From Wenzhouxiangella marina (GTDB lineage: Bacteria; Pseudomonadota; Gammaproteobacteria; Xanthomonadales; Wenzhouxiangellaceae), in NCBI RefSeq assembly GCF_001187785.1, contig NZ_CP012154.1, positions 428,501 to 492,500 on the forward strand: a stretch of 64,000 nucleotides of DNA, read 5' to 3'. The translations under genes were made by a program, and so were the position numbers. Positions 51,424-52,559 of the stretch are shown here, piece by piece. How positions within the stretch are numbered: position 1 is the stretch's first letter; every line of letters starts with the position of its first letter. The notes beneath the pieces are model-generated. The model saw nothing but the letters and a program-made list of their open reading frames with translations, was not told the DNA's origin and did not search any database.

Positions 51424-52559
51424 GTGAAAACCATCCTGAAGTGGGGAGGGCGCGCCGTGCTGGCGGTCCTGGGCCTGGTCGCAGTCGCGCTGGTCGCCGT
51501 TTTCGGTGTCAGCCAGTGGAAGCTCGACAAGGAATATGCCGTGCCGGCCGAGGTGCTGGCCCCTACTAGTCCAACCGTAAGTATTGCCTCATTCAGGGCT
51601 CCGGACGGATTCGCCTGCAAGGCAGAGTACCGAAGGCATAGCCATTCTACGTCGAGGTACTTTAACGCCGCAGGCGGATTCGTCCGGAGCCCCCGCAGGG
51701 CTTGCCTCTCAGCGCCCGTGGACTGCGTTGTTGGCGCTCAACGTAGGCCCGGCTACGCACTTCGCGTCAACGCCTTGCCACGAGCGCTGAGAGACAAGCT
51801 GAATGAGGCAATACTTACGGTTGGACTAGTAACGTCGACATGGCCGATCCGGCACTGATCGAGGAAGGCGAGCGCCTGGCCACGATCACCGGCTGCAATG
51901 GCTGTCACGGCCCGACCATGGCCGGCAAGGTCTTTCTCGACATCCCGAAGGTCATGCGTCTGATCGCGCCCAATCTGCCGGCGCTGGCGCAGCAGGCCTC
52001 GGACGCCGATTTCGTGCGCGCGGTGCGCCATGGCGTTCGACGTGACGGTCGCAGCGTGGTCGGCATGCCTTCGGTCGGCCTTCATCACCTCACAGACCGG
52101 GATCTTGCGGCGATCATCGCCTACATCCGGAGCCGGCCCGTCGAAGCGGATGGGACCGATGAGGTCAACGCCTATCGAATCTTCGCTCGACTCGGCATGG
52201 CCCTGGGCCAGTTCCCGCTGCCGGCGGCCGAGATCCAGGCCGGCGTCGAGGCCCTGCCGTCACGCCAGTCGGGTGACCCGGCCGCCCTGGGCGCCTATGT
52301 GGCCGCGATTTCCTGTTCCGATTGCCATGGCACCGATCTCCAGGGCAATCCCCATCTGCCGGCGCCTTCCCTGGCCATCGTTCGTGGCTACTCTCGCGAG
52401 CAGTTCGAGCGGCTGATGCGTGAAGGACTGGCCGTCGGCGGCCGAGAGGTCGGTCTGATGAGCGAAGTGTCGCGGCTGCATTTCAGTGCGCTGACCCAGG
52501 CCGAGGTGGATGGCCTGTATGCCTACCTCAGCACGATGGGGGCGGGCGGATCGGACTGA
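51424..52559 (+). pseudogene. Membrane-anchored diheme cytochrome c gene, split by an inverted-repeat element
   Basis: The 5' part encodes a cytoplasmic start and one membrane helix (residues about 9-30, GRAVLAVLGLVAVALVAVFG) from GTG 51424. The 3' part from 51831 encodes two c-type heme sites, TGCNGCHG and SCSDCHG, with distal MPSVGLHHLTDRDLAAIIAY and SEVSRLHFSALTQAEV. Between them lies a 258-base element. Removing it with one copy of the duplicated TA rejoins both parts in one frame, giving 291 residues. As it stands, the downstream ORF (ATG 51840) has no export signal, so heme attachment in the periplasm is unlikely. The insertion therefore probably inactivates the gene. Confidence 0.88.
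51569..51826. mobile_element. 258-bp MITE-like element with 32-bp perfect terminal inverted repeats
   Basis: The ends are perfect inverted copies over 32 bases counted from ACTAGT at 51565 and back from 51830 (start ACTAGTCCAACCGTAAGTAT). There is no transposase. The interior is two nested hairpins: GGGCTCCGGACGGATTCGCC pairs with GGCGGATTCGTCCGGAGCCC (near 51595-51615 and 51671-51691), and CTTGCCTCTCAGCGCCCGTG pairs with its near-complement near 51775-51797. The CTAG at both ends with a TA duplication suits IS630/Tc1-type mobilisation in trans. It interrupts the cytochrome c gene. Confidence 0.88.

Follow-up and report, generated by a model that had tools for sequence, protein, structure and literature searches.

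The usual explanation of MITEs is that they are decayed copies of a single transposon, in which the ends are conserved and the interior is drifting, and some of them (e.g. Stowaway and Nezha) are derived from IS630/Tc1-mariner transposons. The element described in this work, from the genome of Wenzhouxiangella marina, shares with this latter group its short length, the lack of coding sequence, inverted repeats, a TA duplication and, presumably, movement in trans. However, it differs from them in that its interior is conserved and structured and is common to elements with unrelated ends, and the ends are more variable than the interior. Of the other systems that are comparable, MITEPsy1 from Pseudomonas syringae (100 bp) is likewise a gammaproteobacterial MITE with IS5-like ends; its target is CTAG/YTAA, its transposition has been shown and it has been traced to one IS, viz. 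ISPsy2, but no two-hairpin interior is reported in the excerpts of its description on which this comparison is based (PMC3189936). The QMITE1 and QMITE2 elements of Coxiella burnetii are also structured gammaproteobacterial MITEs, which are transcribed, but going by their description they have other direct repeats, and QMITE1 was reported to be without homologues in other genomes (PMC5896051). Lastly, REP and BIME sequences are similar in being palindromic hairpins that are dispersed and frequently paired in inverted orientation, but their units are of 20-40 bp, whereas the motifs described here are of about 97-100 nt and are enclosed by transposon ends whose targets are TA or TTAA (PMC3733652). 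A further difference from the REP/BIME sequences is that a Y1 transposase was not found in several of the carriers of the present motif.

The window, by which is meant the whole stretch of 64,000 nucleotides that was analysed, contains this element at G000:C1:480065, where it sits between the membrane anchor and the haem domain of a diheme cytochrome c gene. In our assessment it is highly probable that an IS630/Tc1-mariner-type MITE has broken this gene at a TA, and that the interior of the element is a conserved passenger and not an IS remnant. The element is bounded by two perfect 32-base inverted repeats (51565-51596 and 51799-51830; 33 bases if the outer T/A is counted), and no transposase gene is found inside 51565-51830. 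In these respects, and in the location of the element between the anchor and the haem domain, the results agree with the original prediction, which was made from the letters of the DNA. Between the repeats there are two hairpins, A and B, whose arms are at 51596-51618/51670-51692 and 51700-51721/51778-51799, respectively, and the folding energy of the element is -180 kcal/mol (z = -18.5 vs shuffled sequences). The two hairpins share a single structural motif when each is read from its own end of the element towards the centre, and the covariance model of this motif is referred to below as R1. The features of the locus are as follows:

51424..51563, + strand: 5' part of the cytochrome c gene, with GTG start and membrane anchor (ORF and joined-frame translation)
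51564..51565, no strand: left copy of the probable TA target duplication (from the empty sites in the ABC gene and in the nested element)
51565..51596, + strand: left 32-bp terminal inverted repeat, consisting of the A of TA plus CTAGTCCAACCGTAAGTATTGCCTCATTCAG (of equal length in family copies)
51596..51692, + strand: hairpin A, inward-facing, with the CAAGGC / CATAG-N-CTACGTC / AACGC motif (R1 match at 51610-51678, + strand, 71.7 bits)
51693..51699, no strand: short linker separating hairpins A and B (from the fold; equivalent position in other elements)
51700..51799, - strand: hairpin B, inward-facing, with the same motif as hairpin A (R1 match at 51715-51785, - strand, 71.1 bits)
51799..51830, - strand: right 32-bp terminal inverted repeat
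51830..51831, no strand: right copy of the probable TA target duplication (from the same empty sites as the left copy)
51832..52559, + strand: 3' part of the cytochrome c gene, with two cytochrome c domains (Pfam PF13442 and PF00034, two stretches each)

It had been predicted that a 258-base element was inserted into CTAG, and that an exact excision of 260 bases restores a frame of 291 codons. The restoration of the frame is seen, but the version of it that follows from the target site is different: removal of 266 bp from the window leads to a 289-aa diheme cytochrome frame with the junction ..AEVLAP^NVDMADPAL... Both the 260-bp and the 266-bp deletions (each leaving the remainder 2 modulo 3) are in frame, and due to this the frame alone could not decide between them. 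If the target of the element is TA, then the flanks of other copies, when they are joined with one TA, should correspond to uninterrupted sequences. One example of this kind is provided by an element inside an ABC-transporter gene (L036; loci and genomes are designated here by L and G numbers), where such joining gives GFVFQSF^NLIPEMSV, a stretch that is contiguous in PDB homologues (LolD- and MacB-type structures). In another case (L170), the element is nested in an arm of an older element, and the sequence obtained by joining the flanks with one TA gives a gap-free alignment to intact relatives (73/76). Based on these two empty-site comparisons, the target is TA, which is also the target of IS630-dependent elements, and the insertion adds 266 bp, comprising a mobile part of 264 bp (51566-51829, with TA on either side) and one TA. 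The element length, the CTAG target and the size of the excision in the original prediction are thus replaced by these values, while the TA duplication that it proposed is borne out. A TA is present directly outside CTAR...YTAG in most family copies, those lacking a clean TA pair being L035, L045, L059, L098 and L101. Further, in uninterrupted homologues from the genus (L061, L063 and L065) the gene forms one open frame encoding 296-318 aa, and the linker is similar, as expected if it has been split by the element in the window. That this insertion is fairly recent, as also suggested originally, is supported by the 98.5% identity of the window copy to the copy at 545 kb, by its perfect ends and by the open downstream frame.

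The window element is a MITE: it is short and non-coding, has terminal inverted repeats and the TA duplication, and is one of five full-length copies dispersed in the W. marina genome. A search of this genome for further copies located the other four at 545, 1256, 2086 and 2355 kb, and judged by their flanks these full copies look intergenic. The same genome also has solo ends at 918 and 1169 kb and, at 2941 kb, a remnant of 55 bp. The copy at 545 kb has an additional hairpin of 63 bp. Such an optional sub-hairpin, at a fixed position in hairpin A or B, is observed in several species (L004, L005, L051, L058 and L109), and copies with and without it coexist. Matches to the element are present in 22 of the 61 genomes searched (host included), all from the same family, and by pattern scan the carriers are Wenzhouxiangella and Wenzhouxiangellaceae. 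Plasmid, phage and viral collections queried with the window element, one arm and the hairpin patterns gave no match; an exception among plasmids, found via a class relative, is the Azotobacter chroococcum plasmid pAcX50f, which carries one motif hairpin (L356:1493-1561, 37 bits) near a RidA-family gene.

The interior of the element has a much wider distribution. The motif comprises an outer stem that is about 22 bp long, CAAGGC facing AACGC, an inner stem of 8 bp whose sequence is free and in which covariation is strong, and an apical (CA/TG)TAG-N4-5-CTA(C/T) loop. In the window the R1 model gives two matches of 71-72 bits, the next best being 16.7, and among the sampled Gammaproteobacteria it matches 101 of 369 genomes and 82 of 272 genera, often with at least 13 matches per genome among the matches listed. 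About 21 of the fetched loci contain an inward-facing pair (+ left and - right), mostly 105-170 bp apart, and of the ten representative elements that were folded those with two hairpins share a three-way junction. The occurrence of this structured interior across the class, and with the ends of unrelated transposases, was missed in the original prediction. No relevant match to the element or the motif is found in Rfam, and a partial coverage of the literature yielded nothing matching the motif, the TTAACCCGG-ended MITEs or the shared interiors, so that an earlier description is possible. Elements with a single hairpin also exist (L313, L303, L128 and L141); in the single-hairpin L303 and L311 (genomes G760 and G668) the ends, ATATACTTCTC(T/G)CG, match no IS end that was recognised.

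In the Wenzhouxiangellaceae the arms are of 32 bp and comprise about ten or more sequence types, the two arms of an element changing together; those of L130 and L050 have little in common with the window arm beyond their length and the CAG end. The ends are mostly no more alike than shuffled sequences and the hairpin cores are above every shuffle. An interior that is more conserved than the ends is the reverse of what is expected for a MITE. An element of the genus with the same architecture (L111) has ends ATTAACCCGGCACGAATGTAGATC, which are of the type present in the IS630 copies of G027 and G033. A transposase flanked by inverted ends of the ACTAAT...GCCTCAT type is present in a decayed IS630 from the genus (L085); the scores of these ends against the arm types are 17 and 16, compared to maxima of 15 and 16 in 500 shuffles, the right-end match thus equalling the best shuffle. 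In the IS630 copy of G518 (L349) the surviving end matches a MITE end from the same genome beyond the repeat, including TGTTCAGCCGC, and an IS630 in G752 (L326) has CTAGTGTAGTGCGTCA ends that are close to L310. For these three IS630 elements the matches are to arm types of the group other than that of the window, the match to the exact arm of the window being partial. A view that IS630 is unsupported, since the IS630 ends in G027 and G033 differ from the window arms, was also considered, and it was overturned by the occurrence of those ends in L111 and by the ACTAAT-type ends of L085. The assignment to the IS630 type made in the original prediction is upheld by the TA target and by the IS630 copy of the genus whose ends match. 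The IS630-type transposase with the same ends for which it proposed a search was not found in the host genome; in the genus there is the decayed L085, whose ends match other arm types.

The ends of the single-hairpin element L313, viz. CTTAAGGAAACGCTGATCAATTCG with TTAA (a YTAR-type target) on both sides, are near-identical to those of the annotated IS5-like element ISBmu23 from Burkholderia multivorans, and other IS5 elements are also bounded by near-identical ends; for the two-hairpin elements L308 and L321, the IS5 assignment is based on end similarity. The interior thus looks like a passenger that has been joined to ends from two or more transposase families unrelated to each other, and exchange of ends between such families may have given it this variety. 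The window element would have been moved by an IS630-family transposase acting in trans through the terminal repeats, as judged from the ends and the target. No IS630 (PF13358, DDE_3) or DDE_Tnp_1 (PF01609) transposase gene is found in the host genome, and the high-copy genomes G020, G030 and G035 also gave none; due to this the copies may now be stranded. Likewise, no autonomous element was found that combines these arms and hairpins, the arm pairs all being at most about 456 bp apart, and the solo arms examined are truncated copies.

If the element were an ordinary MITE, i.e. if it were derived by internal deletion from one IS630 that had hairpins in its interior, then the TA target and the IS630-type ends would be accounted for. 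However, IS630 copies with such ends run straight into the transposase gene, no hairpins were seen between the end and the transposase gene in any IS630 or IS5 copy examined (ISBmu23 included), and the same interior is found with unrelated ends. Derivation of the interior from a parent IS, which is optional in some MITE definitions, is therefore not what these hairpin-less IS copies indicate. It is unlikely that the interior is an internal-deletion product of one IS, because it remains recognisable while the ends change among the IS630 and IS5 types, and we give this explanation as a whole a small chance. The existence of single-hairpin elements could also be taken to mean that the hairpin itself is mobile by means of a structure-recognising enzyme (IS200-like Y1 or attC-like), the arms being incidental, and an association of REP hairpins with Y1 proteins is indeed described in the sections of the source relied on here (PMC2817692). 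This is very improbable, as no Y1_Tnp was found in G020, G030 and G006, which sets these elements apart from the REP/RAYT systems, and the 2-bp TA, or TTAA, signature is found at the arms and not at the hairpins. The candidacy of Y1/RAYT as the mobiliser was rejected as inconsistent with its absence from several carriers. Similarly, the precise 266-bp removal that restores the frame hardly justifies the view that the insert is spliced out of the transcript like an intron and that the cytochrome remains functional: the frame is restored by chance in 1/3 of cases, the other full host copies look intergenic, no intron family in Rfam matches, and the probability of this explanation is close to nil.

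The compensating changes in the internal hairpins, from which selection on folding had been predicted, are confirmed: in a set of 21 elements, changes on both sides are seen in 53 of the 107 pairs, with 94.6% remaining paired, a result not reached in any of 500 shuffles, although relatedness among the elements inflates both this count and the wobble counts that follow. In 44 class-level hairpins, the mismatches on the inward strand are G-T in 53 cases and A-C in 16 (p = 9e-6; 26 hairpins vs 5), the outer stems being unpaired in R1. Within the family the corresponding numbers are 96 and 13, mostly from four fixed columns. Counts of this kind on MFE-derived inner stems were set aside, since the fold itself favours G-U. 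The covariation, together with the predominance of G-T mismatches over A-C ones on the inward strand, suggests selection on folding of a single strand, either RNA or ssDNA. Long perfect palindromes can be corrected by template switching or by conversion between the arms, and such correction could have produced the covariation with no selection on folding; the inversion of hairpin A in L042 indicates that arm-to-arm rearrangement does occur. However, recurrent non-pairs persist, as at arm position 25, where a mismatch is present in 25 of the 46 arm pairs (a few of these pairs being shifted registers of one element) in comparison to 5 or fewer at every other position. In addition, the wobble pairs are at fixed positions and are G-T, not A-C, on the inward strand, in unrelated hairpins too, and the bases of the loop and internal loop are conserved. 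Correction of palindromes is thus an unlikely, though not negligible, source of the covariation.

In contrast to these alternatives, we tentatively put forward, as a possibility with somewhat less than even chances, that the paired hairpin is a structured passenger in its own right, occurring across the class, which persists by exchanging its ends among transposase families that are unrelated to one another (IS630, IS5 and perhaps others) and acts via a folded single strand read inward. The most likely role of the passenger would be such folding from either end: for a polymerase or ssDNA entering from either side, the first hairpin met would be the correctly oriented one, and it is proposed that folding would aid the persistence of the element or limit damage to host transcripts. 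If this is correct, then there is selection on the interior, whether for its own spread or for some effect on host transcripts, and R1 provides a concrete motif for searching, annotation and testing. Many of the palindromic repeats that are unannotated in gammaproteobacterial genomes could also be explained by the passenger.

Several individual elements also exhibit rearrangements. In L042:1476-1740 it is the inner part of hairpin A that is inverted relative to other copies, which suggests inversion between palindromic arms. Arms-only palindromes of about 45-50 bp, which are apparent deletion products of the element, are seen in L099 (G016:C216:9544-9594) and L182:1022-1066. Elements with differing end types are nested in one another in L306:1380-1800 and L298:1180-1690, and in a TTAACCCGG-ended element of the family (L224:1339-2119; G019:C1, about 1203 kb) a gene for an IS200-like Y1 transposase is nested between the hairpins.
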